Source: Novakomyces olei
Taxonomy: Eukaryota > Ascomycota > Novakomycetes > Novakomycetales > Novakomycetaceae
Length of the DNA stretch: 27,026 bases
Direction of reading: 5' to 3'
Assembly: GCA_016906335.1 (NCBI GenBank)
Contig: JADEYG010000010.1
Span: forward strand, 1-27,026
Of the stretch, positions 1 to 27,026 are shown one piece after another; the first letter of the stretch is position 1; each line of letters opens with the position of its first letter. The translations under genes were made by a program, and so were the position numbers. Under the pieces are notes generated by a model that was given only the letters and a program-made list of their open reading frames with translations, was not told where the DNA came from and ran no database searches.

Positions 1-107
1 AAATAATTACCCTTTAGTCACGAGATCCGCTGCTCATGGCCATCAAAAACACACGCGAGGTTGCGTTTGCCGCATACATCGCACGGATTGAGTACCAGAA
101 CACTTGA
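1..107 (+). CDS. Possible 3' end of an unrecognised gene
   Basis: An open frame enters near the left edge and ends at a TGA at 105-107. The last residues read MAIKNTREVAFAAYIARIE followed by YQNT. There is an upstream stop in this frame within the window, so either the gene is frame-broken like its neighbours or this is chance. The residue mix looks like an amphipathic helix at a protein C-terminus. I do not recognise the family and assign no function. Confidence 0.22.
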
Positions 108-1085
108 TTTTGAGCCTTCGACATCGCGAGCATCTAATACGGTACATTTAGCTTACGCATAAATATGTCAAACTTACGCGTTAGGGGGCCCTTTTGTTAA
201 CCCGGTGAGCATTGCCCGCCATTGCCGCCCGCCTTTTGGGCAGAGTGATGTATGTACCCGAATAGACGGCGATACTGCACTATTATTTGTATTTTTATCA
301 ATTAATATAAATAGAGAGTGAGTGGGGAAATGTAGGAGAACGCTTGCCATAGTAAAATAAAAGGCATATGTACGAGGTCAGACAACGACATGATAAGGTC
401 GATATGCGATGGGCAAATAGGCTTTGTCGCTATTGAATGTGGGAAAGTAAAATCTGCTTATTATGGGACTAGATACCATCGTTGTGATCATTGCTGAGCT
501 ATAGTCAGGCGAAATTCAAAACGAGGGAGAGTATTTATAAAAGTGGTCTATTAGGAAGCTGTGCCGTGGTGCAACACAAAATGCAGCATACCCAGGAAAT
601 TATTCCACATGAACGCTTTCAAGTTTGATTTGTGCTTGCACCTTTTCACTCATGTCATAAACTTTTAACAAAGCAATTTTAACTGAAAAATATAGCCTCC
701 ACTTTTTTTTTTTTTTTTGCGCAAATGAGAATTTTATTTTATTTTATTTTTTTCTTCAATAAAATTGTATGCGGCAATTGATCACTTTTGCTGAGCAAGA
801 CAAATCAAATTTTCCTTCATATCAGCCGACAGCACTGTCTTCTTACAACTTCCAATCATTTTGAAAGACTTGGATGGCCAATTTTTTTATTTGCAGGGTT
901 TGCGATACCAGATTGCCAGATAATATAGTAAACTTTGTTATAATTGATTCAATTGTTGGCAACCGAATGCTGGAATTTTTACAAATTGGGGGCAAGAGAG
1001 CCAGAAAACAGGTCGCACATAGAATAAGACTTTTAATCCAATCTGAGTGAAGAGAAAACGGCCAGCGCTTCTCGTCCTTTCGGAA
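108..1085. other. Intergenic, no gene seen
   Basis: No frame of convincing length or composition is visible on either strand. The stretch is AT-rich and includes a 16-base T homopolymer at 703-718 followed by TTTTA-type runs to about 750. Such T tracts are common in fungal promoters and terminators but prove nothing here. Confidence 0.6.
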
Positions 1086-1240
1086 CGATAATTTGTTATC
1101 GCTGCTTAAGCAAGCGCGTCACATACATCCAATCGGAAACGTTCCCGATCGCTGAGTGGGTACGATATAGTCAATACTGATAAAGTGAGAAGGAGCTTAC
1201 CTTTGTGTTACTTTCTTTATTCTATAAATACCTGTTATCG
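1086..1240. promoter_or_regulatory. GATA-site cluster upstream of the FAD oxidase
   Basis: Four matches to HGATAR, the consensus of fungal nitrogen GATA factors (AreA/NIT2/Gln3), lie 165-320 bases before the oxidase start. Two form a palindrome, CGATAATTTGTTATCG (1086-1101). The others are TGATAA at 1178-1183 and CGATAA on the minus strand at 1235-1240. A TATA-like TCTATAAATA lies at about 1221-1230. The sites are seen directly; binding and nitrogen control are inferred from the family consensus. In AT-rich DNA single sites occur by chance, so weight rests on the clustering and the palindrome. Confidence 0.5.
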
Positions 1241-1406
1241 GAAGCGCTACCGCGAGATACGTGGGCGCAATGTAACCTGCCTTTCGGAGAGCGATCTGGT
1301 CTTACATCAGATACTCCATCTTTATGGACTTAATAAAGACTGAGTAACTACTTGAACTTAATTAGCAATTACAGTTCTGCTGCTTTGATATTTGAAGACG
1401 CGCAAT

Positions 1407-2831
1407 ATGAAAATTCAAAAGTCAGACCCAATAATCATAGTTGGTGGGGGCGCTTATGGTCTTTCGACTGCACTCCATTTGTTGCAAGATGGTTTCACCA
1501 ACCTATCCGTCTTTGAAAAGAGCGAGACAATTCCTCCTTTACAGTCGGCTGCGAATGATCTCAACAAAATTGTGCGAGCGGAATACGAGGAGCCATTCTA
1601 TTCGGATTTGACCTTGGTAGGCAGTATACTTTTTTTCAATAAACATATTTTTGTTCAATTTTGATCCGGTTTAGACATCGGCATAAAATGTTTTGTGCTA
1701 TCATCTTTGGCTATTTACAGTTTTATTAATTTATCAGAAAGCAATTGAAGCTTGGAAAACTCCTCTTTTTGCGCCACATTTCCACCAAGTTGGTTTCGTC
1801 CACTGTGTGTCTGGAGCTGCTCCACAGGAAGCACAAAACACTCTAAACAGGTTCCAGAAGGCGGCGGAAAATAATCCGGTTCTAAAGCCTCATGTGAAAC
1901 CAATTAACGGGCCCGTCGACGTGCATGAAACTTGCTGGCAATTCAATCAGGGCCAAACGCCAGGCTGGAAAGGCTACGTCAACTACTATGACGGTTACGC
2001 ACACTCAGGAAATGCTCTTGTTTCTGTCTTTCGAGCCACAATTTCATCTGGCGTAAAGTACTTCTTGGGCCTCAATACGAAGTCAAGAAAGTGATTTACG
2101 GTAAGCCTGTGTCTCAGAATTTTGCCGGTGTTCAAACAAAAGACGGTAAGATTTATAAGGCCGCGCTCGTTATTGTAGCGGCTGGAGCGGCAGTTGGACG
2201 CTTGATTCCAGAACTTGGAAGGCAAGTCGTTGCTAAGTCTTGGTCTGTAGCCCATGTCCATTTGACGGACGAAGAAACGTCGGCTTTACGTGGAATCCCT
2301 GTCACTTATGCCCGTGATTTAGGCTTCTTTTTCGAGCCTGATCCAAAGACAAATTTGTTGAAACTGTGTCCCATGGGTGGTGGCTATATCAATACTGACC
2401 CAATGAATGGAGTATCTTATGCTCCGGAGTCTTATGGAGATAGTGCGTTTATGCCAGAGGAGGACGAAAAGAAAGTACGGCTTTTACTAAAGCAAACCCT
2501 ACCTTATTTGGCCGATCGCCCTCTGGTGCAAAAGACACTTTGCTGGTTTGCCGATACAAAGGACACAGATTTTATTTTCGATTATGCCCCAAATTCTAAT
2601 TCTACAGTACTTGTAATGTCTGGTGACTCTGGCCATGCTTTCAAGATGTTTCCAATAATTGGTTCATGGATCGTCGATCTTTTGAAGGCTCCCAATGGCC
2701 AACAGAATACAAAGCGCTGGCGCTGGAAGGAAGCTAACGACAAAAAAGAGAAATGGGCCGGAGAAGTCAGCTGGCGGCTTGGCGCAAGCACAGAGTTTGC
2801 GGATATCAAGCAGCCAAGGTCCAAACTATAG
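1407..2831 (+). CDS. Peroxisomal FAD-dependent amino-acid/fructosyl-amine oxidase
   Basis: This is a DAO-family flavoenzyme related to fungal fructosyl amino acid oxidases, sarcosine oxidases and pipecolate oxidases, which oxidise a secondary amine with O2 and release H2O2. The ATG at 1407 gives a short leader and then the FAD-binding beta-alpha-beta motif IIIVGGGAYGLSTALHL. The segment NDLNKIVRAEY matches the family's flavin-attachment neighbourhood, and GWKGYVNYYDGYAHSGNAL follows in exon 2. The C-terminal GDSGHAFKMFPIIG is the usual second FAD contact. The protein ends in SKL, a canonical PTS1, so it should act in peroxisomes beside catalase. One intron (1617-1737) restores the frame. A one-base shift near 2068 breaks the frame; beyond it the sequence resumes as PQYEVKKVIYG. 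Length is about 430 residues, normal for the family. The exact substrate cannot be read from sequence. Confidence 0.85.
1617..1737 (+). other. Intron in the FAD oxidase gene
   Basis: The intron starts GTAGGC and ends TATCAG. Removing these 121 bases joins the codons for DLTL directly to KAIEAWKTPLF, as the oxidase family requires, with no phase change. A TATTAAT element about 10 bases before the acceptor could be the branch site. The intron holds in-frame stops, so splicing is needed. Confidence 0.7.
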
Positions 2832-3299
2832 ATCTTGGCAACAGAATTGGGATTATTATTATTAGAATTATTTTTAGGTAAATAGTAAAAACATTTTCTT
2901 TTGAATTGGGAATCATGCTGAGCTTGAACAAATTAGATATAATAAAAAATCAATTGAAATCGGGGAAAAATTACAGTGAAATGCAAAGGTGTAGTGTGAA
3001 GAAGAATGGGCAGCAATGTGAATTTACTAATGATAACAGTTGTCTTTTCCTTCGACAGAGGCCAGCTGCACAAATTAATAAGATCAGATATACAAAAATA
3101 TCAGTGATGTGACTATAAATGCTCTCAGTTATAAGACCAACATAATGGGGGTAAGTGTTTAAACCTTTATTTGCAATATGTAAAAAAGGCTTTTTAAACC
3201 TAAGAAACAATGTAATTAGATGTATACCAATGTTGGAAAAGAAATTTATCATATCGTACATAATTAGTGACCGAGACTGACTAAATGGAGATTCTGTCG
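2832..3299. other. Convergent intergenic region
   Basis: This lies between the 3' ends of the FAD oxidase (+) and the P5C dehydrogenase (-). It is AT-rich with no convincing gene. An open stretch at 2906-3112 (+) lacks any recognisable domain and has a composition like spacer DNA. Both genes' polyadenylation signals are expected here, but no single signal stands out. Confidence 0.5.
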
Positions 3300-5100
3300 C
3301 GAACAACTTACCGTTGCTTGGATATAAAACCGACAGGGGAAAAAATTCTTCCTTGATCAAACGAGATACAGAATTGCGTAAACCGTCTGAGCTGCCGCCT
3401 TAATGTACGTACGCTCGCTCGGAGCGCCGCCGAAAGATGGCTGACAAATAGAAGCATATTTTGCAGTCTGTGAAGAGTAGAATTATTACAAAATAATAAA
3501 TAAAACGCTAAAATAATGACGTATGGAAAAAAGTTTCCGGCAGAAAGCCGGAGTATTTTCAGCTCTTGATGATTTTCCGGTCCTGAGGAAAAAGCACCTG
3601 AAGGGCCAACCCGCCACCAGGCCGGTCAATCAGTCTTAAGCATCTTTGAGAAATCGGCATCAGGGTAACGTAAACAGTAAGAACAGGCCAAAGATTTCCT
3701 CATTGAAAAGCTATGCTCCGAATCTTTGCAACGTAGACAGTAGGCTTGACAATAATATCCCACAGAATCATCAATAATACCACCAGCAATGCACTCCAAC
3801 TGGAATCGGCTATGCTCATACGATAATCTTCTTGATCTTATCGAAGAGCGTCGGTGAATGACGGGCCAATAAGCTCCAATCTTGTCCGGGTTGCCGAAGT
3901 AATCTTGCTGATACCATTTTCAACAGAGAGAGAAACTCTTGTGCTCGGCGATTCCGGAAGGTACAAACGCGAAGTTGCTGAGCACTTTTGGCCCTGGTAC
4001 CAAATGATCCACGGATAGTGTGGTAAACCAGCACTTGGAATATCAGCGGTAGAGTCGAACAAATGGAAGATTCTTCCCATTGTCTCAGCTCCAACACGAG
4101 AAACTCGCGATAGAGATTGCTGGCAATCCTGTACCAATACGGCATAAAAGATCGAAAAACATCAGAAGACCCAATAAAATTAAGACAGCGGAAGTCAGGG
4201 TGTTTAAAGACAGCGTCGTTGATGACTCAGATCACCAGTTGACGAATTGAATACATCTTTGGCAGACTGCTTCCAAGAGGATTTTGTATACAGATAACTG
4301 GCATAGACGCTAAGGGAGAACTCCAGAGAACCACGTTGCCCATATAAGAGCGGGAGCAGAGACCAAATTACTCCTAGAGCGGTAAAGTTGAAGGGAAGAT
4401 GGAATAGAGAAACCCTCCAAGGCGATAGTCGAGTCGGCTAATTCAGGTTAGAATTGTGAACAAGGTATAAAACTGCAATACGCTAGTAAGATGATATTAT
4501 ATTTGAACATAACCGAGCAGACACAAAGTAGCCAGGAATCAACTCCACATTCCAATCACTGCCCGGTCAGGCTGTCTACAAATCTTGCGGCAATTACAGT
4601 TCAATCGAAAGAAATCGGCCAATTCGGCGGAAGCATCAATTTCAGCTTGCAGATGTTCTTTCTTGGGCCTAAATATTTGCTGATAGTTCTCATATTGACT
4701 TTCAGTCACCAATTCAGCTGCCTTTAAAAAGATGCTTGCACGATGACGAATGGTGTGTTCTCCCACTCCTCTTACACTTAGGGCTGCTTCAATGCTCAGA
4801 GACTTGCTCCTTTTCGAAAGAGGGTATTAGTGAATTTAATTGCGTGCTCTGCTGGTAAAGGCGATCCCATGATTTTCGCTACTGTGCATTTGCCGATCGA
4901 ATACATATTCGCTTTGCAAGGCAATTGAGATCGGAGTCTCTTTAGAACAACTTCCAACTTTTCACGTTTCCTGAACCCTTTTTATAGTGTAACTAGAAAA
5001 ATTTAGCAAACGTTGGTTAATTGATAGCAAAATAAAGAATTTTTTGAACGGATGGAGGAAAGTTTGCATTGGCGTACGTTAGACTCGTTTCTGGGATCAG
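3300..5100 (-). CDS. PUT2: Delta-1-pyrroline-5-carboxylate dehydrogenase (ALDH4 family)
   Basis: This mitochondrial aldehyde dehydrogenase oxidises glutamate semialdehyde (P5C) to glutamate with NAD+. In animals the same enzyme, ALDH4A1, oxidises 3-hydroxy-P5C to 4-hydroxyglutamate. Read from about 5000 downward one finds RASIFLKAAELVTE, AEIDASAELADFFR, FNFTAL, GNVVLW, PLASMPVI and FNFIGSS-like segments. The catalytic block is GQKCSATSRLYLPES, holding the nucleophile Cys. GYY, KPTVYVAK, GPVLTVYV and YPDADFSKMLKTIDR follow, the order of human ALDH4A1. The C-terminus (IKEEFFPL) lies near 3330 but its exact stop is uncertain. At least one intron is present (4438-4543) and others are likely at both ends. 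Several one-base frame shifts interrupt the reading. The start is unresolved; a mitochondrial leader is expected upstream of 4980. Identity is secure, boundaries are not. Confidence 0.93.
4438..4543 (-). other. Probable intron in the P5C dehydrogenase gene
   Basis: On the minus strand the sequence between the AEIDASAELADFFR exon and the GGFLYSIFPFNFTAL exon contains stops and no ALDH similarity. It ends CTAACCTGAATTAG, a good branch site (4447-4451) and acceptor. The donor is less certain: GTTGAT starting at 4543 fits best, but the joined frame is off by one base, consistent with the indels seen in this gene. Confidence 0.6.
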
Positions 5101-5856
5101 GTAAGCGAATGCATGGTGTCTTGTTCGAATTGAACAAACCGACCCGCCTGGCGCATTGATCGGCGATTAGAGATTAATGAAAACCAGCCATATTACAGAT
5201 GTGCTGACGCTTGCTTTGTATAAAATGCTGTTACACCGGAAGTCTGAAAGCACAAGAAAATGGCTTGTCAAAGAGCAGGCTGTCCCTTTATACATCTGTT
5301 ATCGGATAATAATTATTATAATTCAGCTACAATAAATGTACGTCGGATGCTTTCCCGATGGTTATTTTTTCCTTATTGTTCCATATCGGACGGAAACTCA
5401 AATTGGAGTGGCGGTAAAGTGCGAATATATCCCTAACACAATCGCATTTGAATGGAATTGGAGAGGAAGCAGACCATGTATTTGTAAGAAATTCTTATTT
5501 GATGTTTCAAACTAAAATGACCCAGCTGTCAAATGTTTGCGTGTTGTTTTGGACTATTTTGTATCAGTTGATGAACCATGTGAATGTGTTCAGTACTAGC
5601 AAGTGATGGTAAATGTATATGTATTTTTTCTAATAAACAATTACCTAAAACTACTGACTTGTCGTTATAATTAACAGTGTCTTGTAGAGCTATGGAAAAG
5701 ACATGCCTGACCTAAGAAAATTCTGCAAAACATTAGTCAGAAATAATTACCAATAAATGTGCCGTCCTACTTAAAGCCAGATAAACTTTGGACGTGAATG
5801 AATCTCTTAGCCACTAAGAAATTCATATTTTATGAAGCAGATCAATACTGTAAAAT
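5101..5856. other. Intergenic between P5C dehydrogenase and P5C reductase
   Basis: No gene is seen. The region should hold the promoter of the P5C dehydrogenase (transcribed leftward) and the 3' end of the reductase. One minus-strand HGATAR match (CGATAA) lies at 5299-5304. The rest is AT-rich without notable repeats. Confidence 0.5.
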
Positions 5857-6796
5857 CTATTTAAAACATTTTAGTGCTTGTATCGTTAATGTGGGTAACT
5901 TCCCATAAGGCGGGCTAACGGTAACTGCTTCAAGCACAGCTCGTCCAAATGACCTCGAACCCTGTTCTTCCATGACCATCACTCCAGCGATGTACAGCCT
6001 CCAGTGAAGTGCCCTGAACCTCAATTCCGCTGGAGATACCCACTTTGAAGAATACCCGCTGTACGCGCATAGACTGAAATCACTCATTTTACGGGCAAAC
6101 TGCGGGGCACGCCAACAGCGACAGAAGCATCAATCATAGCATCACAACAATTGAGAAAAATGCGGGCGTAAGAGCCAGCCACAGCAGTAGCTGACATTCC
6201 ATCAATTTGGTTCAATTGGACTGTTTCGCCAATTTGTTCGAAAATGAAATTTTGCAAGTAAAAAGGTCTTGAGGTTTGGATCTGATCTTCAATAGCAGTC
6301 AGAGACTGTAGCAACTGAAGCAACATGAAAGGTACAAAAACCCAAGACCAGATCTTTTGTATGGTTTCAGCCGAGTTTAGATCCGTAAATGCTCCTTCCA
6401 ATTCTGGTCTCAGCCACATACACTATCAAAAGTTGCCCTTCAATACCTGACGAAGAGCGTCATTGTTCAGTACCTCTGCAATCTCGCTAGTTCAAGCCTA
6501 AGATTTAGTATCTTGCTCCCTGACCGCTTGACGTTCTGGCTTCGATAAACTGAAAGCTGTCGAGTATTTGAAAACGAGCCTCAAGTCTTGAGCCCGGACC
6601 GCTCGCTGCGTACGCATGCAAGAACCGTGAAAAGATGGTTCGCGCTTTTTCAACAGCGGCAAGTAACCGCCTAAAATGCAACGCCATGTTTCCTGCCGAA
6701 AAGCGAAAATCAGGTCAGAGAAATACTTCAAACGGTGGTGCTAGCTAACGTACCACATCCTAGTATAACAAGAGTCAAGTTACAGGAGCATATATA
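5857..6796 (-). CDS. PRO3: Pyrroline-5-carboxylate reductase
   Basis: The enzyme reduces P5C to proline with NAD(P)H in the cytosol. Exon 1 (about 6796-6754) encodes LTLVILGCG, and splicing at 6753/6693 gives GCGNM, the Rossmann motif of the ProC family. In exon 2, VRTQRAV-like and PSEIAEVLNNDALRQVLKG-like segments follow, then the helical dimerisation domain with AMIDASVAVGVPRSL (the conserved A.ADAGV.AGLPR block). Near the C-terminus, AGVMVMEEQGSRS FGRAVLEAV corresponds to the family's TIAGL.ALE..G..RAAV..AV. The stop is at 5857. The start codon is uncertain because an indel separates the nearest ATG (about 6796) from the frame. Several further one-base shifts occur. This is a biosynthetic-direction enzyme among catabolic genes, which is unusual. 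The Aspergillus prn cluster also contains a reductase-like member, prnX. Confidence 0.88.
6693..6753 (-). other. Intron in the P5C reductase gene
   Basis: The donor is GTACGT and the acceptor CGGCAG; length is 61 bases. A CTGAC branch-like element lies about 25 bases before the acceptor. The joined codons read TGT G|GA AAC ATG, giving Cys-Gly-Asn-Met exactly where the family has its GxGNM nucleotide-binding motif. This is strong support for the splice sites. Confidence 0.8.
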
Positions 6797-7229
6797 TACA
6801 ATAGAGTCTGCAATGGATGTTAAAGCAAAGCCTAAGCGCGTCCGGTTTTGTCTGGTCTACTGCTGATATTAATTTATTATATACGCTTGAAAAACAGAGA
6901 GTATAGTGCAATCTTTCGATGCGTATCTTCCAAATCTTCGGTATAACGTTGTGATAAAGCATTAAATGGTTCTATGGATTCGGATCCGATGATATTGTGC
7001 GGGATATATAAAACGTGTGTGTGGGCGTAATATTAAATATAGTCTGAAATGGATAGATCGATAAGAAATAATGAAATAAATCTGCAAAACTTTTTGGCGC
7101 TATATTACTAAAATTTCATACGGATCTACATAATCGATAACGGAAGGTTTACTCATAATCGTAATCAAATTTATCTAAATTTCTTCATCGCTAAAGTTCT
7201 GTGTTCAAATTGAAATACAGGACTTCTAT
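6797..7229. promoter_or_regulatory. Promoter region of P5C reductase with scattered GATA sites
   Basis: This gap lies upstream of the reductase (-) and downstream of proline dehydrogenase (-). HGATAR matches occur at 6952-6957 (TGATAA), 7059-7064 (CGATAA), 7135-7140 (CGATAA) and 7171-7176 (AGATAA on the minus strand). The density is only modestly above what AT-rich DNA gives by chance. No gene is visible. A TATATATA run lies right at the reductase start (about 6789-6797). Confidence 0.4.
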
Positions 7230-8640
7230 GTAAGACAGCTGGTAAAATCGAGAAAAACATCTCCGGGCAAGCTCTTCTTAAAGCTTTGTGTTCATTCACC
7301 AAGTGGTGCTACAGCGTCTCTATTTTCAACAGCTCTGCGAAGAAGGTAAGCCCAGACTTCAGTCATCGTTCCCATTGCGAGCACTTGTAAACCTCTGGAG
7401 TGCCGCGTTGTCCTCATTTGTAGTAGAGAGAAACTGACTTCGTCGACATTCCATGAGCTGTCCAAATGAACTGGACGTTGGTAAATTGTGCTGATTCGAT
7501 GCTTGTGAAGATCGTGAGCTTCATTACACTTTTCTTGTTGTGGCTTGCCAAAAAAAGGTTAACCAATGGGAAGGCTTATCAATACAATTGGTTCAAACTG
7601 TTGTTTAGTAAGACTGAGAGATGTAGTTGTAAGCATCGTCAGTATTCTTTGTATCGTGGATCAGACACCTCTCGTCGGTATTCATATAGGCGCCTTGACT
7701 AACTTCAGACCGAGTGTAAATCCTTCTTTTTCAGCCTCACCATATGCTGAGGATGTCGACGGAGTATTTTCAAGTAGCCTGATTATGTATATAGATAATC
7801 GATAGCGTCCCTGTTATATTTGGCATGAGAACCATGCCGGCTTTGATATTCCCCATTGGAAACGCTGAGATTCAGCATCAATGAGGATGCGAATACCGCG
7901 AGATTTGCATTTTGTAGCAATTTCATCCATAGATCAACTGCTTGTTGTGACGGAAGTTCGTCCGTGCTAAAGCCGCCGCAACATTAGGCCCGGCTCAGTC
8001 ATTCTAAAAATTAGTTTAAAAGAATTTCTAAAAAGTCTTGAACCTGTTTGGTTTCAAGCTTTAGCGCCTTCTTTCACTTACTTAGAGCCAGATAGTCCCT
8101 TCTCCAGAAACTCCACAGTCAATAAAGTCCGACCCGCCAGGATTCTATGTTTGCACACTAGCAAAGCTGGGTCTACAGACAGTCCCTTTTTCTTTTTTTC
8201 CAACACCGCCATTCCTAAGCTTGCCTGTTCTGTTTTATGATCGAAGTTATCTCCTTCGCATAAGTCATAATCATGCCACGAAACCCCATATTTTTTTATT
8301 GCCAAACGGTAGATTTAGACTTGATAGCATTTCTCCAGAACAAAACTGATTGTAAAACGTTTTTTCAGAAGATTTTTAACAAAGGGTTTGCGATCGACAT
8401 TAAAATAACTGATCTCCTGGCTGAGATTTTTGTTAAGGCAGCAAGCGCTGAGTAAGAAGATATGGTTTTGATGAGACGTTGAAACGAGCATGACCTTAAA
8501 AGGAAGGATCGGTATCGCGCAGACAGAGGTGTAACGCAGATGTCTCAGCAGGCTTATCGAGCTGCTCAGCCCGTACCCCGGCACTTGAAGAGGAGGACTG
8601 GATTCCCCTGACAAACAGATCGATCAAGTAATTTGAAGAA
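7230..8640 (-). CDS. PUT1: Proline dehydrogenase (proline/hydroxyproline oxidase)
   Basis: This mitochondrial inner-membrane flavoenzyme oxidises proline to P5C, and in some family members hydroxyproline to 3-hydroxy-P5C. The minus strand shows a basic N-terminal leader, NVDRKPFVKNLLKK, and then a segment equivalent to the family's YN.FC.GE. It continues with FDHKTEQASLGMAVLEKK, AGRTLLTVEFLEKG, DEIATKCKSRGIRILIDAE (TIM-barrel FAD region), GFTLGLKLVK, FLASHNKKSVMKL, GTPEVYKCS and YLLRRAVENRDAV. The last is the highly conserved R-R..EN.D motif that binds the substrate carboxylate. Order and spacing match fungal Put1/PrnD over its full length (about 460 residues). Many single-base shifts interrupt the frame. 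The start is unclear: ATGs at 8693 and about 8614 are both possible. The C-terminus runs to about 7230. Confidence 0.93.
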
Positions 8641-8693
8641 TTTCGAACCGGATTTAAAAGATCAGTCTAGAATTGACACAGCAAACTTGCCAT

Positions 8694-9500
8694 TTCGATT
8701 TACTCTGTCAAGTTTAGTTTTCGAATCTAGTATTGGAGGTTCAAGGAAGGAGCTTTGATTTAAGGTGGTAGACTCCATCTTATCAGCATATCGAATCATG
8801 CCTATTAGATTCTTTATTCATTCTCGGGTTTGTTTCCGTGTCAGGCACGACAGGGTAAATACAGAATATTTTGCTTTACAAATTGTCATACTTGATTGTT
8901 CGCCCATGCCCACAATTGCCGCCTGGAACTCCTGTCATCGGCCAATCAAAGACCACTATCTTATCAAGGGTGGAAAAAAAAAAAAATACACTAACCTCTC
9001 CTTCGGACATGAAGGGGAGCCTTCCGTCCGCCATATTGTGGAGACAGGGCAGTTTTACCGACGATGCTGCGACACGGGCAAAGCTCCGATTATTTCGTAT
9101 GAAGTGTTAAACAGCACAGTAATCCCAGTCCGCTAGCAGCATTTATAAGCAAATTATTACAGTATTTTACTAATTTTATTGCGGCCTAGAACGAGAACAA
9201 TTGGTCTTCAGATGAAAGGGAAACCGATTTCTTGCCAACTCCATTCTCTAAAAGACGAGGAAAACTGGCTAGTTTTTGCATTATATACTTCTAGACTCTT
9301 ATTTCTAGATTGCCTAGCCGCCATCAATCCATATTAACGTTCGTTTTCATCGGCTTCGAACTTCTATTCAAGGATTAATATAATAATAAATAATGCCAAA
9401 ATATTTGCCCGACGAGTTTTAACCATTGCTCAATTAATGATACAATATTATGAAGTTCTTACATCTAAGCTTTGACATAATGATTAAATTGGCTATGCAA
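8694..9500. other. Region upstream of proline dehydrogenase, with GATA sites and a GC-richer patch
   Basis: This lies between the start of proline dehydrogenase (-) and the 3' end of the aminotransferase (-). HGATAR matches are at 8780-8785 (minus-strand TGATAA) and, overlapping, 8956-8961 and 8961-8966 (minus-strand AGATAG and TGATAA). A GC-richer patch at about 8890-9135 is open on both strands, but neither translation resembles a family I know. It may be a small gene, a broken exon or dense promoter DNA. It contains an A13 homopolymer at about 8974-8986. The stretch 9140-9500 is AT-rich and shows nothing. Confidence 0.4.
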
Positions 9501-10992
9501 TTATCCTTTTAGCGCGTTGGCTATAGATTCGCCACGTACTCAACATTTCCTGGATTAAGACCAGCAATGGAAATACGGAATTTCCGCCATATATATATGG
9601 TATTCCTCTTCATTTGTTAGAACAATCGATTATTGGATATAAGATGATAAAAACCTTAAGTTTCCGAACAATCTCCGGAGACAATCCAGAAGCCGAACAT
9701 GCCAGTCTGCTTGATTAAATGGTCCCAAGTCCAGGGGCACCTTCGATATTAGTCAACAGTTCTAGTCGATATGATTAAATGAAATGCTGAAGGAGATACC
9801 TAATGGAAAGCAGATTCTATATAATCTTTCCCTCATCAACCGAATCCTTGAGCTCATAGTAATCAAATCTCGGAACATTCTTGGCCGAAGATCATCATTG
9901 GTTAGAATATTTGTAGCGATTTTAGCCCCGTAAGCCGGAGGATTGGAGATTTCAGATCGCTGCAGCATTTCAAGCATAGATTGACTATTAATAGCTGACG
10001 TTGTGCTGTTCGTCTTGAGAACAAAGCATCCAACTCGTTCTCCTAGAAAGTAAAAACAGTCAAATAACTTTCAGAATAGAAATGCAAACCCAAATTTCTA
10101 ATTAACATTAAAAAATCATCTTGTCAAGCTTCTTACCATAAAGACCCATATTTTTAGCAAACGATACACAAACTCCAGCTTCCATATGTAATTCGCCGAT
10201 GATGTAGTGAATAGCAAACGCGTCGTTATCAATATTTCCAGAGTTAAATCCCAGTACGCGGCATCAAGCAGAGGGAACATTTCTTTAATTTTCAACAATT
10301 TGCACAATTTTACCCACTGATCTCGGCTTGATCACAGCCAGTTGGATTATGAGCACAACAATGCAAAATGACAACTGACTTATCATCTGCCGCTTCCAAA
10401 TGAGAATAATACGTATCAAAGTCCAAATCTTTAATTCTTCATTATAATATGCAATTTTTCACACTTGAAGCCTAGCGAAGAAAAACTTGGGAAATGATTC
10501 GACCAGGTTGGCACAGGAATATAAATTTTTGGTAGAGTTTTTGGGATGACATGCCCTTAGAAGCGCTCCTGCCACATGCAAAGAGCCAGTGCCCGATAAG
10601 GTCTGACATGTTGCAATCTGAGATTAGCCCTTGACCAATTAATCTCATTTATACATTTTAGACACATTCGAAAATGAATAGATGTTATACTTGTCTTGAG
10701 ACTTTGCATAAATCTCTGAGCCCAGAACCAGCTCGGCAACAGACTGCCTAAATTAGGCAGTCCTAGAATTGGAAGGTATTCATGATTCAGACCCTCATAT
10801 GCTAAGCTTTCGCGGCTTTTCCTGACAGATGGCAGGATCCATGGTTGTCCATTTTCATCACGATATGTCCTTGTCCCAGATTGACTTTTCGTGTATCAGT
10901 GCTTTCTGAAACTGTGCAGTCAGTGCAAAAATAGCATCAGGAGGAACGTATATGGCGCACGCCAGAAAAGACGGCGTCTCGTCTTTTGTCAT
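9501..10992 (-). CDS. Aspartate aminotransferase
   Basis: This PLP enzyme (fold type I) exchanges amino groups between aspartate and 2-oxoglutarate; the mitochondrial form also converts 4-hydroxyglutamate to 4-hydroxy-2-oxoglutarate. The ATG at 10992 gives a short N-terminus, then VPPDAIFALTAQFQ, an INLGQGTYRDENG-like block, QPWILPSVRK-like, and NHEYLPILGLP. Next come HCCAHNPTGCD, LLDAAYWGF-like (D and Y contact PLP) and FAKNMGLYG, where the Lys forms the internal aldimine. SNPPAYGAKIATNIL follows with its conserved substrate-side loop, then GMFGFSGLSPEIVRK. After a 47-base intron come EYHIYMA and ISIAGLNPG, and the gene ends at the TAA at 9501. The order matches the family throughout at about 410 residues. 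There is no clear mitochondrial leader or PTS1, so the copy may be cytosolic. Several one-base shifts break the frame. Confidence 0.93.
9608..9654 (-). other. Intron in the aspartate aminotransferase gene
   Basis: The donor is GTTTTT and the acceptor GAAG|AGG; length is 47 bases. A perfect CTAAC branch site lies at 9616-9620, 8 bases before the acceptor. Splicing joins the codons of GLSPEIVRKL to those of EYHIYMA, adjacent in all aspartate aminotransferases. Confidence 0.72.
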
Positions 10993-11393
10993 TTTTGCCG
11001 ATCCTGCTATTGAGCCCAAAATAATGGGTTCTTTTGAGAGGCACAAGGCACGTAGTCCTATATATATGTACATATATATATTTGCCGGACCTCATCGAGT
11101 GTTCTGCGCTTTCGCCTTTATACATAGCTCAATTCTCCAGAGATTACAATAGTGCTATAAGTGAATTGAGGTCAATTTTCACGTTATTGGAAGTATCTTG
11201 AGTTGTTCTCATACCCTGCGATACTTTTGCGAAGTTTCTTGGACACGGAAGCGATCCCGTTCATATCAAAGGCGCCCACTTAAGATTGATTAAATAAATG
11301 TTCAAGTTATGAGAGTATAATTTAGCGCGCTTGGAACGACTTAGCAAAATCCCGTCTAGCAGCCAAACTACGAGTGCTCTGCCGCAAGATACA
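10993..11393. promoter_or_regulatory. Divergent promoter between aminotransferase and aldolase
   Basis: About 400 bases separate the starts of the aminotransferase (-) and the aldolase (+), an arrangement that often gives shared control. A TATATATGTACATATATATA palindrome at 11059-11078 lies between them. I saw no HGATAR cluster here. Small open frames exist on both strands but match nothing. Confidence 0.45.
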
Positions 11394-12389
11394 ATGACAA
11401 ACCATCCTAAGTTGCACGTTCCATCATCAGGCGTTTGGTGCCCGGCCATAACCTTCTTCAATCATGATACGGACTCATTGGATTTAGACTCACAATCGCA
11501 ATATTTTTCGTACCTGGCGAGATCAGGGCTCACTGGACTCGTTTATACTTGGCACCAACGCGGAGGCTTTTCTGCTGACCCGTGAAGAGCGCAAGCAGCT
11601 TATTGCAACAGCCCGCGAATCAATTGGACCCGAATTTCCGATCATGGCCGGTGTCGGAGCCCACTCTACAAACAGACGTTAGAACTTGCTCAGGATGCTT
11701 ATGAAGCGGGGGCTGACTACTTACTGGTTTTGCCTCCCGCTTACTTTGGCAAAGCACCACCATAAGCGTGATAAAGAATTTTTCGTTACTGTGGCAGCCA
11801 AAGCCCCGCTTCCAGTCGTCCTGTACAACTTCCCGGTGTTTGCAATGGCGTCGATTTGGATTCAGATACAATTACGGCGATTACACGCGAAGCGCCTAAT
11901 CATAATGTTGTGGGAGTTAAACTGACTTGCGGATCTGTCGGTAAGATCACCCGTTTGGCAGCAACATTTTCGCCTGAAGAGTTGCCGTGTTGGTGGTCAG
12001 TCTGATTTCCTTATTGGCGGTTTAGCGTCCGGCAGGCAGGAATGCATTGCCGCGTTGCAAACGTTTTCCCAAAAACTATCTCTTGCATCTATAGGCTGTA
12101 CAGTGAGGGCAAATATGAGGAAGCTTTGAAATTGCATCAAAGGCAGCCCTGGCTGAGAGTGCTATCAAGGGAGGAATTGCTGTACAAAATATGCTGTACC
12201 TACCATCTGGAATCTGCTGGAGTATTCAAGAGCATTACTTCAAAATTGGAGCCAAGGCAGCCATACGAGGCTCCTAGCGAGCCAGCTAAGCAAACTATCA
12301 GGGAAAAACTAGCTGGAGTTGCCAAATTGAATCAATCTGTAGACAAAGGTTTAAAGAGACGCCAGGTAATAAAGAAAAATGTTAATTAG
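11394..12389 (+). CDS. DapA-family aldolase (4-hydroxy-2-oxoglutarate or 2-keto-3-deoxy-sugar-acid aldolase type)
   Basis: This is a class I (Schiff-base) aldolase of the DapA/HOGA1/GaaC superfamily, about 310 residues. The ATG at 11394 starts MTNHPKLHV. The sequence continues GVWCPAITFF, GLTGLV-ILGTNAEAFLLTREER (frame shift near 11550), FPIMAGVGAHST, YEAGADYLLVLPPAYFGK, PVVLYNFP (catalytic Tyr) and NVVGVKLTCGSVGKITRLAA (Lys forms the Schiff base). It then reads GGQSDFLIGGLASG, NVFPKTISCIYRLYSEGKYE and LAGVAKLNQSVDKGLKRRQ, with the stop at 12387-12389. The KLTCG..GK form is shared with fungal 2-keto-3-deoxygalactonate aldolases (GaaC) as well as hydroxyoxoglutarate aldolases, so family alone does not fix the substrate. 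Its neighbours point to 4-hydroxy-2-oxoglutarate, cleaved to pyruvate and glyoxylate. About five one-base shifts occur. Confidence 0.85.
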
Positions 12390-12999
12390 CACTGTATTTA
12401 AATTTGGTCTGTTTCCCCTGATATTGAAAACTTTTTGGTGTAAATTGTTGTAAATTTGTTATGACTTATTGGGACCTATCGTAACTTGACAATCTGAAGG
12501 ATATCTGCCAGGTCCACTATACTAGATGCTCGACACAACAGTTTTGAGAAGGTTGGATTTCAGCTGGTCGAATAATTGGATTTAACGAGCAACACTTTGT
12601 ATAATTAGGATGAACAAATAATTATACTTAGGGGACTGTTTCACCGCCTTTTTTACGGAGCAAGAGGAAATCAAAATTGTAAGTAAAAAAAGCACATCCT
12701 ACCTTTTGTTGATATTGCCGAAAAACATTATTATCATTCGAGTTCTGCGTTCAAAGTGGATTCGCCCGATCCAGGTTTGACTTTTTTTCATTACAAGAGT
12801 CGTTCTTAAAAAATCTAAAAACCTGAAGGTACGATTGAGGTACGAAGTGCTGAGTTGATCTGATGAGAGCACGCCAGAGTTCACCGAGTACTTGTCTAAG
12901 TTTCGGAGATGAGTATAGTATGTGCAGTCAGCACTCAATCCGGCAAAATTAAGCGCTCGGAGAAACTCCATTTTTCAAGCCAATCAAAGATTAAATCAA
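12390..12999. other. Intergenic, no gene seen
   Basis: This lies between the aldolase stop and the GATA cluster before the transporter. An open minus-strand stretch at 12699-12971 shows no recognisable motif and low-complexity composition, so I treat it as chance. Confidence 0.5.
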
Positions 13000-13116
13000 T
13001 TATCAGATTAATTATCAGATAACTATCAGATCAATCAGATTAATTATCAGATTGCGACATCGGCAATATGGTCTGGTTTAGTCAGCGAAGTTATTATTTT
13101 TTTCCTGTGTTTATCT
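13000..13116. promoter_or_regulatory. Dense GATA-site array upstream of the peptide transporter
   Basis: Six HGATAR matches fall within 117 bases: TTATCA at 13000, 13012 and 13044, AGATAA at 13017, CTATCA at 13023 and TTATCT at 13111 (start positions; TTATC/CTATC are minus-strand GATAA/GATAG). Most sit in an imperfect tandem repeat of about 12 bases related to ATTATCAGATTA. The array ends about 170 bases before the transporter's first ATG. Fungal nitrogen GATA factors need two or more close sites, so nitrogen-regulated expression is a reasonable inference. Confidence 0.6.
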
Positions 13117-13287
13117 CATACCCACTTGCTGTTGTAAGCACATTGTTCTGCGCACATTCAAATGCCGATGGCCGCTTTGTGGACTGATGCAGTCGCATGT
13201 CGGAATATCCACACGTTTCGCAGAAGGCATAAAAGCAAAAGATACAGACACACAAGGCATTTGGTCTTTAATTCTAATCCGACGCCA

Positions 13288-15810
13288 ATGCTGACAGGAT
13301 CTGACGTAGAAAAAGTCAGAATACTCGACCTTTAGACGACGAAATGGCACGGCGGTGCTCAAGGATGGAGAATTGGCTTCAGAGCATGAGTTAGAGATGA
13401 CAGGTCCAGCGCAGACTCTTCCTCTTTTATTTCCAGCAATGATCTGGACAAAATTACGCAAATAGACGGTTCCAATGTGCTCTGTGCCAGTAAGTGCTTA
13501 ATAAAATGTTCCTCGTGTCTAAGCATGTAGCCCTGCGGATGTGGGTAATTGCTATATTCCTGGTGACTATCGGTGTTGCTGTCAATTCCATATTTATGTT
13601 TCGTTTCCCTTCCGTAACAATTTCGGCCATTGTTTTGCAGATCGCCGCTTTCCCGCTCGGACGGCTTTGGGAGATTATTATGCCAAACAACTCTATATCT
13701 TGTTAGATGGAGTATACCAATAAACCCGGGCCATTTCACGTGAATGAACATTGCTGCATTTTATTATGGGCAATTTAGCCTTACCGTAAGCACGAAATTG
13801 CTCAAAAAGAAAAGACGAAAAAGAGAATCTTTTTAGGATCAGAGATGCAAGAAATGTTAATGGAAACGAAACAATCTCGAGGCAACCCTTGATCCCCAAT
13901 CAAAAGCAGCTTTCAAAAGACTTACAATTCTAGCATTCGCCTGAGTTCAGAAATTTTGTTAGAAATAAAACACTATTGGAAGCAAGATTCAATGGGGGTT
14001 TCCAATATCTTTTTACAATCTCTGTTATGCTATTTGGACTGGGTATGGCCGGGATGTCAAGGTCCATTCTTGTAGACAACCCGGACATGCTTTGGCCTTC
14101 TAATCTCGGCAACATTGCTTTGCAAACGTATTGCATGGCCGCAATTCTCAATCAAAAGAACTTACAGGCTGGAGAATTTCCGTTTACTCCTTTTTTATCT
14201 GTGTTCTTTCCGGCGCTTTTGTTTGGCATTGGTTTCCGGACTTTATTTTCCCGGCTTTAAGCACTTTGGGTGCCTTTATCAGCTGGTGCAAGCCGTCTTC
14301 AGCTACTCTTGCCCAAGTATTCGGAATGAGCACAGGCATGGATTGTTTCCACTAACTTTAGATTGGAGCCAGATCGCCAACTTGGGCTCACCTCTCACAC
14401 ACCGTGGTGCGGTGATTACAAATATGGCTTCGTCAATTGTGTTTTGGCTGTTTATTGTACCCCGGCACTTACTATTCTAATGTTTGGGATTCTGCTTATT
14501 TTCCTCTGCTGAGACAACAAAACGTGAGTTTGTCTCCAACCCCTTTGCATTTAACAACAGATTTTAAGCCTTGCCTACCGCCGTTTACGTATTTATTATT
14601 TGACTTTAAATTTTTATTTTTGCTTAGTCTTTGCCGTTACTAATAGGCCAGTTTATGACAAGAACCGGTAAAAGCTACAAGACCGACAGAATAACTAAGC
14701 GGCATCACTTTCAATGAAGAAGGGTACAGCAGCTATTCCAGTATCTATCTGCCTATTACATACGCTCTTTCTTTTGGATTGGAGTTTGCCACGATTAGCA
14801 GACATAGTGACGGTCGGTCTAAACGAGTTGCCTAAATCTTTAAACCTCACCGTGATAAAAGCGCAACAGAAAATGTGTACAATCAAATACAAGTAAAACA
14901 CAATCGACACCCTACTGGTGGCACGGATCTATCCTTATAATTGGCTTTGCTCTTATGATGGCAGCATCTCAAGGCTGGGGTACACAAACGCCTTGGTGAC
15001 GCTGTGATCTAAGCTGTCTATTGCTCTCGTTACATTTGTTCCTTTTGGCGTGTTGCGGCTAAAACAATCAAAAGGTTTCATTATGGTCCTGATGCAAATT
15101 ATGCGGGTTACTGGTTTCATGGAAGACCACTATCTGTAATTTTTATGATGGCTTTTGGGTTTTTGTCGGGCTGATAAGGTCTGGCATTTGCACAGACATG
15201 AAGTTTGGGTATACCTGGGAATCCCACCGAGAACTGTTTTCTTTGTACAGCTTGTTGGAATACTTTGTCAGGTCTAGTGGAAGTTGGGGCGTAAATTGGA
15301 CGCTGGCAAATGTGGCGCACGTTGCACTAAAGACGCTTATAATAACTTCAATTGCCGGTTTGCCAATCACATTACAATACGAATATAATCTGGGGCGTTA
15401 TTGGACCTCAGAGAGTTTTCGGCAGACTCTTATGGCAAACTATATTGGTTCTTTCTCATTGGTGCATATTGCCAGTCATCAGGTTCGTTATCTCGCCTTT
15501 AGCCTAAATCTTTCGTGCGGCTTGTCAGTATTCCTTTTCTTTAGTGGCGCCAGCAATATTGCAACCATAACTGGTGTTAATATTACTCTTGGGCAATCGG
15601 TTGGTTTTGTTTCAACTACTCATCCGCAAAATAACAGAGCCTGTGGTTGATCTACAATTTTCCCTTGAGCGCTGCGCTGGATGCTGGTACCAGCATTGCA
15701 ACGATCTTATATTTTTTGTCATTAATTTGACTGGGGCGAGTAGTAGTTTTTCCTGGTGGGGACAACTGTCGCAGGGAAAGGCTGCCGACGCGGAGGGCTG
15801 CCCCATTTAA
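13288..15810 (+). CDS. OPT-family oligopeptide transporter
   Basis: This is a proton-coupled plasma-membrane importer of tetra- and pentapeptides (fungal OPT clade), with about 12-16 membrane segments. An ATG at 13288 opens an acidic cytosolic N-terminus ending NDLDKITQIDGSN. TM1 follows as MWVIAIFLVTIGVAVNS with FRFPSVTISAIVLQ and FPLGRLWE. The signature NKPGPFHVNEH is at about 13720. Next come GLGMAGMSRSILVDNPDML and WPSNLGNIALQ, FIFPALSTLGAF, FPLTLDWSQIA, YYSNVWDSAYFP, a KLGRYWK-like loop and GIPPRTVFFVQLVG. The sequence continues with WGVIGPQRVFG and SGASNI..ITGVN, then LSAALDAGTSIATILYF and WWG..EGCPI before the TAA at 15808-15810. Order and length (about 800 residues plus introns) match the family. 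Numerous one-base shifts occur, and probably introns near 13800-13970 and 14525-14640. Import of collagen- or proline-rich peptides is inferred from the neighbours. Confidence 0.9.
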
Positions 15811-16490
15811 ATATGCCAACAGCTAGCTGTAGACTGAATCCAGTCAACAAACTCGTATGAATGAATAGATTAGAATTGAAACTAATTAAAAGGAAACGGA
15901 AAACAGTAGCAGATAGCCAATGGAAATTGAGTAAAAAGGGTAACAATAAATCTAGAATTTTCCCCATCGTCCATGTAGAACACTTTTATCTACAGTCACC
16001 TTGAGGCTATAAGCTTGCTGTCCTCGCTTCAGGGTGTTGACCTCAGCAGTAAGATCTTCCCGCCTCTCCCTAATACTTCGCACCACAGTGTCCATTGGCA
16101 AGTCGCTTCCTAGACGATGGCGTCCTCTTCAGACCCTTCCTCTACTTCAACCCACGGCCTTACACCATCAAACACTACGCATAATGCCAGGCAGCAATTT
16201 AGGGTGAGGTAACTACTAACAATAATCTGAGTTTATTCTAATATAAAAAGTTCATTGGGCCCCTACAACAAGGGAAGTCTACAATCGCCATGAAAAATAC
16301 ATTTAACATTTATTAAGAATGCCAATTTGAAATTTTTCAAGTAAAAAGATATTCGAAACCAAAATTTCCCTTTGAACTAATGCGCTAAATTAAATCAAGC
16401 AACGCTTATAGTAAAACGAAGTAATGTCCATGGCAGATATGCGGAATGCCTTAAGTCTACTTATCCGAGCCGACGAGGCAGTCATTTATA
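15811..16490. other. Spacer with two short uncertain open frames
   Basis: A 47-codon frame on the minus strand (16095-15952) begins MDTVVRSIRERREDLTAE and looks like a short coiled coil; an overlapping frame continues upstream of it. On the plus strand an ATG at 16117 starts MASSSDPSSTSTHGLTPSN and ends at a possible GTGAGG donor, with TACTAAC 7 bases further on. Neither matches a family I recognise. They could be remnants of a larger gene or chance. From about 16210 on the sequence is AT-rich spacer. Confidence 0.3.
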
Positions 16491-17300
16491 TACTACCGAT
16501 CAACTACTTACTAAACTAAGTCAGTGTACACCTAAACTTCGTTAGTTTAATTCTTCAAAGTGACTATTCAATTACTTAAATAAATCTATTAGGGTTATAT
16601 ATGGTTAGGTTTAGTTAAGTACCCGTATTACTTCTTAATTCTATTTTCAGAGCTGTTCAGCTCCGCCTTTCGTTTATCTTTGTCACGGTTGCTTAAAAGT
16701 GGCTGGGAGCACTTAAGTAAGCAACTTCGTAGTTTAGTTAGTTAATTTAGTTTAGTTAGTTTATTTAATTAGTTTAGTTAAGTTGTATTGGAGGAAGGTG
16801 CTTAGAGTAGCGCTCCGGAGCTCGGACTCAAGCACTTCTGCAATAAGTAATAACTTTAGTAGTTTCGTTTAGAGTCGGGTGGATCTTTGGTAGTACGAGC
16901 CGAGCCCAAGTATAAGAAGAAGGTATTCTTCTACTGGATTCGGGCGTTACAAAAACCAGGTTCCGCCTAATATTAAGTGTCTTGAGATTAGTTCTAAAGA
17001 TTGGGTCTCCCCAAGTTCGATTACACGTAGCGAGAAAAGTAGAAGCAGGACTCTATTTATATCCTCGCTATTTCGATAGGGGTTCAGTGGGCAGAGATTA
17101 CGGGAACTGCGCTGAAAGCTAAGCCCGATATTGCCCTAGTGTCAAAAGTCAGGGTTAAAGCCCTTTATACACTAAAGCTCCTATGGAACTAAGTAATAGC
17201 ACAAATAGTGCTATATAGCACTACCTAGTACTATTGCTATAAACTACTATATAAACCATATAGTCCTTATCTTGAGTAATCCAGCTTTCGCTTTTTTAAA
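16490..17300. repeat. TTTAGTTAG-rich, hairpin-rich AT region
   Basis: Runs of TTTAGTTAG and TTAGTTTAGTTAG occur at about 16545-16620 and 16728-16785; they resemble the telomere unit without its GGG. Short inverted repeats are frequent: GCTCCGGAGC near 16815, AGAAGAA/TTCTTCT near 16918-16938, TTGGG/CCCAA at 17001-17014, TAGTGT/ACACTA (17137-17142 and 17169-17174) enclosing AGGG/CCCT, and a perfect 18-base palindrome at 17206-17223. No gene is recognised, though a short frame near 16895-16970 has coding-like composition. Confidence 0.5.
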
Positions 17301-17393
17301 TAGGCCATGTCACACCTAAATTATGACCCCCCTCCAGGTAGGCTCCTATTTCTTTCAGCCTTCTCTACTATTTCACCTAATCTATCTGCCCCT

Positions 17394-18510
17394 TTAATTC
17401 TGGTCTTCTCCTTCCTGAGCCCCAATCGTGTGCTCCTCGTAGACATTTGCCAATGCCACGGAGTTGTCCGAATCCGCCGACAGTGTCTCCAATTCCCACC
17501 TCACTAGGCGTTCCACAGTGTTTTCCTGCCCCCAACTGGTATCACCTGTAACCAGTGAGCGCACTGTTTTCCAGGAGATCACTGCATGGAGCCAACCGGT
17601 CCCATGTAGCGCGAATCCCTTCTTCAGGTCACAAAATGTAGCCCCTGAAGTCATGAATGCCCTGGTACACAAAACACACCACCTATGTGGTGTACTGCGC
17701 GAAGTATCAAGGTTCGCAGCCGACGGTGGCCAGGCGAATACCAATTTCCTTCCCAGCACGCAAACCAGCACGTGACCCAAGAACACGTTGTCCACGTGTA
17801 TGTCCGTGATCGTCCCAGCCGGAGAGACCACCGTGCTCCAGTCCGTTTTGAGGCGGTTTTGTATCTATTTGTAGCGGGTTAGGGCCCTCGGGCTCAAGGT
17901 TAGTAAGCCCTGCGTTCGAGGGCGGCACATTGTAAGCCGCGTACCACTCGATTTTTTCCGCGCCCGTAAACGAAACCTGCACAAACCGAGCCACCGAAAT
18001 GTCCGTAGATTTGCTCGGGTCACGAACCGTTAAAAGTTGAAGGTCGTGCTGGCAGAGTCCTCCATACGGCCGGCCACGTTGGCTCCCTCAAACAGTCTTT
18101 CCGGGATTCCCGTAACGGTATGAAGCCATTTGTGCTTCTAGTCCGCCGCTGCCCAAAGTATATTCCTACCCGTCCGGTGCGTCGGCATTTTTGACGTTCG
18201 AAGATCCCATTCCGACACCAGTTCTGTCATGATCCTCGCCTTGGCGAGTTCCTGACAACCGCGTTGGGAAGCGAGGGGCGGACGCCTGTAGTCGACTTGG
18301 GATGTCGCCGTCGCAAGCTTCCGCCAACGCGGCCAAGACCAGTCGGCGCGTAACCGCGATGGGTCTTGGACGTAGAGTTGTCTTAGTGCGCATTGTAGGT
18401 ACGCGCACTAAGCCAGCTTGGCCACGGGAGCGAGGGCTCCATGCACAATGTGCACGGACTCGCTTCCCGTTCACATTCTCGCACGCTAGCAGTGCGACCC
18501 TTCGCACTCT
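17394..18510 (-). pseudogene. Decayed JmjC-domain protein gene in a GC-rich island
   Basis: The minus strand carries a fungal JmjC-type protein; the family are Fe(II)/2-oxoglutarate oxygenases, many of them histone demethylases. From about 18100 downward it reads GANVAGRMEDSASTTFNL, ARFVQVSFTGAEKIEWYAAY and, after a frame change near 17860, SPAGTITDIHVDN, which has the iron-binding HxD. LVCVLGRKLVFAWPPSAANL follows, then GFALHGTGWLHAVISWKTV, whose GWLHAV supplies the third iron ligand. The stop is at 17394. The N-terminal part (18510-18166) encodes an Arg- and Cys-containing stretch that may be a degenerate zinc cluster. Two or more frame breaks and at least one in-frame stop are present. Base composition (clearly GC-richer) and CpG content differ from the cluster to the left. 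Chromatin-related function is inferred only from the family. Confidence 0.65.
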
Positions 18511-18690
18511 GCTGCGCGAACATTCATAGTTATTCCATAGACTTAGTTTAGGCTGGAGCTTCCCTCTCTAACTTGTGCGACCTTCGCATAAGTTACTTGG
18601 GAAGAGTAGTTTAGAATGCGAAGGAGCATCCGCTCCTCCGCAACTTAGTTATAGTTTATAGTGCCGTGAAGGCCTCTCGCCCTTCACGGT
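18379..18690. repeat. Run of consecutive GC-rich hairpins
   Basis: Five strong inverted repeats follow one another: CTTAGTGCGC/GCGCACTAAG (18382-18391 with 18403-18412), AGTGCGA/TCGCACT (18491-18497 with 18502-18508), an 11-base stem with one G-T pair (18569-18579 with 18585-18595), an 11-base stem with one mismatch (18617-18627 with 18632-18642), and CCGTGAAGG/CCTTCACGG (18664-18672 with 18681-18689). Loops are 4-11 bases. Part lies in the 5' area of the JmjC relic and part outside it, so coding constraint does not explain them. Confidence 0.7.
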
Positions 18691-18729
18691 GATTATCTCA
18701 AAGTGGAGTAATATTATATTTACTCTGGT

Positions 18730-19085
18730 AAGCTTTACAGTAATCGCTAGATATATTCAAGACGGAATTATGGCGAAATTCCATTTTTATGTAAGTGATT
18801 CTTATTATGTATATTCTAGTCAGGGTTTTCGCTTTTCCTTTACGCCATAATTCCATTTCGAAAAATAATTATGTATGAGGGGGGGTCATGCAATTCCTTA
18901 GCATTCCGCGAATTATGGGCGTAATTCTAATAAGAATGGTAGGAGAAACGTGGAGGCAGGGTTTTTAGGAGAAATTTTCCGACTAAATTCCAAATTATAA
19001 TATGGGAAATTGCGCGGGATGCTAAGATTGATAAACGGGACGACCTTAAGAGCAAAATAGTTTCCGCCTTATTCTAATAATTGGC
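18730..19085. other. AT-rich spacer with GAATTATGGCG inverted repeats
   Basis: GGAATTATGGCG (from about 18763) is repeated inverted as CGCCATAATTCC (about 18843-18854). A related GAATTATGGGCGTAATTC hairpin lies near 18910. The words ATATTCAAGACG at about 18752 recur at about 20683, on the far side of block A. No gene is visible. Confidence 0.5.
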
Positions 19086-20640: not shown

Positions 20641-20949
20641 TAAGCATGGAGTACTAATATAAATATATTCAAAAAATATATATTCAAGACGAAGCTATTG
20701 CGAAATTTCATTTATGTGTAATGTAATCTTAGTCTTTAGCTTTTAATTTAGTATCTTAGCGGTAGTAAAATTCACTTTGCCAAACAGTCATGGAGTATGT
20801 CAAGATTGAGCAATTTGGGGCTTGCATCTGGTGGTGTGTAGAATTTGTTGTGTTCTGCCTCCAAAGCCGGCATTGGAAATAATGCCGGTAGAAAGGCATT
20901 ACAGACATACACATTAGACTCAGGTCTGGGGTCCCTTAAGCTTTGTTGT

Positions 20950-24775: not shown

Positions 24776-24799
24776 ACTGAGAAAATATAAGCCAAATTA

Positions 24800-26913: not shown

Positions 26914-27026
26914 TTAGGGTTATTTAGGGTTAGTTATAGGGTTAGTTATTAGGGTTAGTTAGGGTTAGTTAGGGGTTAGTATTAGGGGTTAGTTAGGGTT
27001 AGTTAGGGTTAGTTAGGGTTAGTTAG
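26914..27026 (+). repeat. Telomere repeats (TTAGTTAGGG type)
   Basis: The chromosome end carries G-rich repeats running 5'-3' to the window edge. The last ~40 bases are regular 10-base TTAGTTAGGG units (equivalently GGGTTAGTTA). The inner part is irregular, with GGGG and TTATTAGGG variants. The orientation is that of a right-hand telomere. The unit differs from the canonical TTAGGG by an added TTAG and from the Yarrowia lipolytica unit by one base. Confidence 0.9.

Follow-up and report, generated by a model that had tools for sequence, protein, structure and literature searches.

The 27,026-nucleotide stretch of Novakomyces olei contig JADEYG010000010.1 (assembly GCA_016906335.1; hereafter the window) carries matches to six gene families within one 12.5-kb stretch near a telomere. 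These are pyrroline-5-carboxylate (P5C) dehydrogenase (P5CDH), P5C reductase, proline dehydrogenase (PRODH), aspartate aminotransferase, a DapA-family aldolase and an oligopeptide transporter of the OPT family, with PRODH and P5C reductase weakly detected. We give a probability of about one half to the reading that this is a real fungal cluster for catabolism of proline and 4-hydroxyproline, whose disruption in the sequence comes from uncorrected deletions or from very recent inactivation. A hydroxyproline route is plausible and unproven, and it explains the genes present most economically.

Families were called from a Pfam scan of the six frames of positions 1-19202, with stops read as X, together with PDB sequence searches and NCBIfam models. 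The Pfam matches in this region are to an FAD oxidoreductase, an aldehyde dehydrogenase, a proline dehydrogenase, a class I aminotransferase, the P5C reductase dimerisation domain, a DapA-family protein and an OPT transporter. Those below the cut-offs are aldehyde dehydrogenase (E 0.089), aminotransferase (0.0018 and 0.0029), P5C reductase (0.27) and proline dehydrogenase (5.2e-5). The PDB searches strengthen four assignments: fructosyl amine oxidase, Put2/ALDH4A1, aspartate aminotransferase and the protein of PDB entry 3QFE. By these matches the order on the minus strand is P5CDH, P5C reductase, PRODH and aspartate aminotransferase, while the plus strand carries the aldolase and then the OPT transporter, with an oxidase gene just outside the cluster (Table 1). 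An initial annotation made from the letters alone had named five families within positions 3300-15810, and P5CDH, PRODH (weakly), aspartate aminotransferase, DapA-family aldolase and OPT transporter are all found there. Its placement of the locus in a subtelomere is likewise borne out by the array of TTAGGGTTAG in which the window ends.

Table 1 Features located in the window
Feature	Position	Strand	Remarks
Fructosyl amino acid/peptide oxidase-like gene	1407..2831	+	PDB 3djd E 2.3e-62; flanks the cluster, not a member
P5C dehydrogenase (Put2/ALDH4A1-like)	~3310..4990	-	Outer limits by eye; many frameshifts
Probable P5C reductase (ProC-like)	~5870..6740	-	Limits by eye; between P5CDH and PRODH
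Proline dehydrogenase	~7180..8015	-	Short pieces; N-terminal end not located
Aspartate aminotransferase	9689..10888	-	PDB 1yaa E 7.6e-30, three stretches; broken
DapA-family class I aldolase, 3QFE type	11394..12390	+	PDB 3qfe E 1.2e-68; broken
OPT oligopeptide transporter (ISP4-like)	13530..15721	+	PF03169 pieces in three frames
Telomeric array	26914..27026	+	Irregular, 10-base unit TTAGGGTTAG; window ends in the array

P5CDH is matched by PDB entries 4OE4 (E 6.2e-10) and 4OE5 (E 1.6e-7). The five alignment blocks of P5CDH and the aminotransferase score 133-376, compared to 22-36 for three shuffles of each, and so these matches are not due to chance. Where the aminotransferase alignment has extra length, two GT..AG intervals are seen by eye, of the kind expected for spliceosomal-type introns. 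The OPT transporter is recognized in four pieces of PF03169, with E 1.4e-14 (profile positions 3-77), 5.6e-5 (103-147), 5.9e-10 (151-211) and 1.6e-7 (460-622); positions 212-459 of the 623-position profile have no match. TIGR00727 adds a match at 13934-14257 (E 1.1e-10). PRODH is the weakest of the five named families. Its best stretch, 8014-7694, matches PF01619 with E 5.2e-5 and 23.4 bits against a cut-off of 27 bits, a fragment at 7295-7558 gives E 0.0018, and the PDB search returned no match at E≤1.

A P5C reductase, which the initial annotation did not list, is probably also present. TIGR00112 (proC) matches 6087-6422 with E 1.6e-4, at 21 bits against a cut-off of 197 bits, and further weak matches are to PF14748 (E 0.015) and PDB 2ahr (E 0.015). 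By eye, positions 5860-6129 resemble a typical P5C reductase C-terminal stretch, which alone matched no family. E. coli ProC oxidises both isomers of 4-hydroxy-L-proline with a kcat/KM 150-300 times below that for proline, according to the available part of a published study (PMC12899673), and a reductase placed in such a cluster could therefore act on either.

The longest stop-to-stop frame within the cluster has 185 codons, and the frames of PRODH and P5C reductase reach at most ~110 codons. Matches to a single family are spread over different frames in the OPT transporter, the aldolase, the aminotransferase and P5CDH. With the matches split in this way and the frames short, the cluster genes are not readable as sequenced. 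The initial annotation had stated that the locus encodes a complete route; as written this fails, because the sequence contains no intact copy of any cluster gene.

Frameshift-tolerant alignment against PDB relatives covered three of the six cluster genes, namely P5CDH, the aminotransferase and the aldolase. At a permissive setting the alignments contain 45 frameshifts (37 of -1, 2 of -2, 5 of +1 and 1 of +2) and no stops in 893 aligned codons; deletions thus make up 39 of the 45. The two P5CDH blocks hold 20 and 8 frameshifts without stops, although one of the 20 lies next to a modelled intron and could be an artefact of reading phase, which would make the count 19. The three aminotransferase blocks hold 6 and the aldolase 11, again with no stops among the aligned codons. 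These numbers depend on the settings: a middle setting gives 39 frameshifts and no stops in 900 codons, and a strict setting, in which frameshifts are penalised more and stops less, gives 31 with a single stop in 907.

A random substitution in the aligned codons creates a stop in 4.7% of cases. On the assumption that neutral decay adds 1, 2, 3, 5 or 8 substitutions for each indel, 2.1, 4.3, 6.4, 10.7 or 17.1 stops would be expected, and the probability of finding none at the permissive setting is 0.12, 0.014, 0.0017, 2.3e-5 or 3.9e-8. The corresponding probabilities at the strict setting are 0.57, 0.21, 0.068, 0.0057 and 1e-4. The absence of stops beside 45 frameshifts, together with the high identity of the aldolase to 3QFE, suggests that substitutions lag behind deletions. 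This implies either that the assembly alone lacks these bases, or that a very recent, deletion-rich inactivation has taken place. Old neutral decay should not give such a pattern, which is better matched by deletions of bases left uncorrected at the end of a contig, or by very recent inactivation. Long-read errors can break genes through frameshifts and premature stops (PMC12007338, available in part), and errors in repeat regions often outlast short-read polishing (PMC8812927, available in part). We infer from the latter that a duplicated subtelomere would suit such errors. Homopolymer run lengths in the cluster show no clear departure from a Markov model.

The aldolase, which the initial annotation had singled out as the informative member of the cluster, turns out to be no nearer to HOGA1 than to YagE or to dihydrodipicolinate synthase (DHDPS)-type enzymes. 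Aligned to 3QFE it is 68.5% identical over 295 codons, and the Pfam DHDPS model matches it in two frames (E 5.5e-11 and 3e-6). Over the block shared with HOGA1, its identity is 32.7% (48/147) to HOGA1, 32.7% (48/147) to YagE, 32.9% (48/146) to 6T3T, 29.3% (43/147) to 1O5K, 34.2% (50/146) to a Haloarcula protein and 29.3% (43/147) to a Metabacillus protein. On these figures HOGA1 does not stand out among the DapA-family enzymes. 3QFE itself is 28.4% (44/155) identical to HOGA1 and 70.7% (106/150) to the window aldolase, a figure favoured by the window aldolase having been read against 3QFE. 3QFE also matched seven NCBIfam models and stays under the cut-off of each (TIGR00674: 116 against 206).

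In the available part of a study of HOGA, Lys196, Tyr168 and Ser77 are named as the catalytic residues and Asn78 and Ser198 as those that bind substrate, and the last two are termed unique to HOGA (PMC3188589). At these five positions the window aldolase has Lys, Tyr, Thr, Asn and Thr, respectively. The equivalents of the Schiff-base Lys196 and the catalytic Tyr168 are kept in the motifs GVKLT and LYNFP, and the place of HOGA Tyr140 is also a Tyr when counted from the preceding proline, where the alignment gap is ambiguous. From the trio Ser77, Asn78 and Ser198 only Asn78 is kept, so that the set seen in HOGA is incomplete. DHDPS Arg138, which serves the second substrate, has no Arg counterpart in either the window aldolase or 3QFE in the alignment, which places neither with DHDPS by this residue. 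Judged by its sequence the aldolase cannot be classed as HOGA and belongs with 3QFE. Its residues are compatible with a class I aldolase that forms pyruvate, and they would allow, without establishing, a substrate derived from hydroxyproline; since it lies about as far from HOGA1 as from YagE and the DHDPS types, it does not decide the substrate. The fungal GaaC/LGA1 enzymes presumably share some motifs with it. In prokaryotic genomes 64 stretches fit a pattern from the 3QFE sequence, none of them confirmed as a relative, and a plasmid search with 3QFE matched 1167 records, all below 60% identity, with 27-32% for the 15 listed.

Each step of the animal route has a candidate. Peptides would enter through the OPT transporter, and PRODH would oxidise proline or hydroxyproline to the pyrroline, which P5C reductase would return to the imino acid. 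P5CDH would yield glutamate or 4-hydroxyglutamate, the aminotransferase would convert 4-hydroxyglutamate to 4-hydroxy-2-oxoglutarate, and the 3QFE-type aldolase would split this into pyruvate and glyoxylate. The substrate, the flow and the co-regulation of the cluster are what we infer from its gene content. The hydroxyproline route proposed in the initial annotation stands in so far as the gene set fits the four animal steps and includes an importer, and the presence of both an aminotransferase and an aldolase beside PRODH and P5CDH does exceed the needs of plain proline catabolism. It is held back by the broken genes and by the ambiguity of the aldolase.

Several observations weigh against a real cluster with artefactual or very recent deletions. 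No cluster gene has an intact frame, and detection of PRODH and P5C reductase is weak. The argument from stops loses force at low substitution ratios and at the strict setting; one stop, located within 20 inserted codons of the third aminotransferase block, was left out of the count, and the flanking oxidase gene, used as a control against a reference only 36% identical, has 6 frameshifts and 1 stop at the permissive setting. Residual long-read errors are mostly homopolymer errors, according to the part of the source available (PMC8812927), and 35% of the -1 sites lie near runs of at least 3, compared to 32% of all positions (34 of the 37 sites examined). A homopolymer error model finds no support in these figures. 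As for the aldolase, its distances from HOGA1, YagE and two DHDPS-type chains are all about equal (29-33%), its GXXGE motif reads GTNAE with Ala in place of the last Gly, and in human HOGA the changes of Ser77 and Ser198 to Thr lower kcat/KM to 0.02 and 0.18 of wild type, respectively (PMC3188589, same part).

The lack of any intact frame and the 34 examined -1 sites without homopolymer enrichment would also suit a subtelomeric relic, in which a cluster that worked in an ancestor has recently been inactivated and the deletions are real in this strain. Subtelomeres are frequent sites of gene loss. We nevertheless consider such a relic rather unlikely, as the absence of stops beside 45 frameshifts in 893 codons and the 68.5% identity of the aldolase suggest few substitutions, and 39 of the 45 events are deletions. 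A proline cluster of PRODH, P5CDH and P5C reductase lying beside an aminotransferase unrelated to it and an aldolase of sugar acids (KDG-like), with no hydroxyproline route at all, would account for the near-equal distances of the aldolase from HOGA1, YagE and DHDPS-type chains and for the aldolase and OPT genes being on the opposite strand. Two of the three bacterial or archaeal matches examined lie beside sugar-acid or ketoglutaric semialdehyde genes and the third beside an aldehyde dehydrogenase, but these neighbourhoods say little about the 3QFE type because one match is YagE and another is 55% identical to YagE. The aldolase shares Asn78 with HOGA, a position occupied by Gly in YagE and by Thr in the DHDPS-type chains, and in our judgement a chance placement of an aminotransferase and an aldolase beside PRODH and P5CDH seems unlikely; we regard this explanation as improbable. 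Returning to a real cluster, we suggest only tentatively its stronger form, in which the living fungus carries an intact cluster for 4-hydroxyproline use with peptide import, and the 3QFE family supplies the fungal 4-hydroxy-2-oxoglutarate aldolase. Any citation of the locus as a working pathway should wait for a check of the sequence and for sight of the linkage in other fungi.

Should the route be real, an aldolase family with a solved structure, for which we saw no established role, would gain a function, and there would be a genetic handle on fungal use of hydroxyproline from collagen or plant extensins. The case also carries a caution, in that a reading made without tools took broken frames for a working pathway.

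The flanking oxidase gene is better preserved than the neighbouring cluster genes. It has one modelled intron of spliceosomal type (1617-1737) and one apparent frameshift, and under strict alignment it shows 1 frameshift and no stops in 393 codons, compared to 31 frameshifts in 907 codons for the cluster. Positions 17001-19000 are GC-richer (49%); their open frames overlap, and Pfam gives no match there. From 19001 to 27000 the subtelomere is AT-rich and in parts strongly asymmetric between the strands (GC skew 0.91 at 26001-27000), and degenerate 15-base tandem repeats occupy 25592-26354. The irregular telomeric unit might help to place the fungus; a literature search on it gave nothing useful among the titles listed. 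A tRNA scan of the window using bacterial settings found none.

Among the closest known counterparts is 3QFE, deposited as a putative dihydrodipicolinate synthase family protein and, we take it, from Coccidioides immitis. It has the same active-site motifs as the window aldolase and, unlike it, an intact frame. Two papers contain the term 3QFE, and judged by title neither concerns this protein; a search for a fungal hydroxyproline gene cluster found none described among the titles listed, which does not prove that none is in print. The prn cluster of Aspergillus nidulans comprises prnA, prnX, prnD, prnB and prnC, with PrnB as proline transporter and PrnA as regulator, according to the available part of the source (PMC5983819). 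It resembles the window in linking PRODH and P5CDH, with the window PRODH match being weak. In place of PrnB, PrnA and prnX, the window has the OPT transporter, aminotransferase, aldolase and P5C reductase; neither a proline permease nor a PrnA-type regulator is among the Pfam matches in the scanned region, and the broken frames make this weak evidence. The animal mitochondrial 4-hydroxyproline pathway (PRODH2, ALDH4A1, GOT2 and HOGA1) draws on the same four enzyme families as the window, whose aldolase is not specially near HOGA1 (32.7%, shared block). In contrast to the animal pathway, the window has its genes clustered, an additional P5C reductase and peptide transporter, and broken frames.

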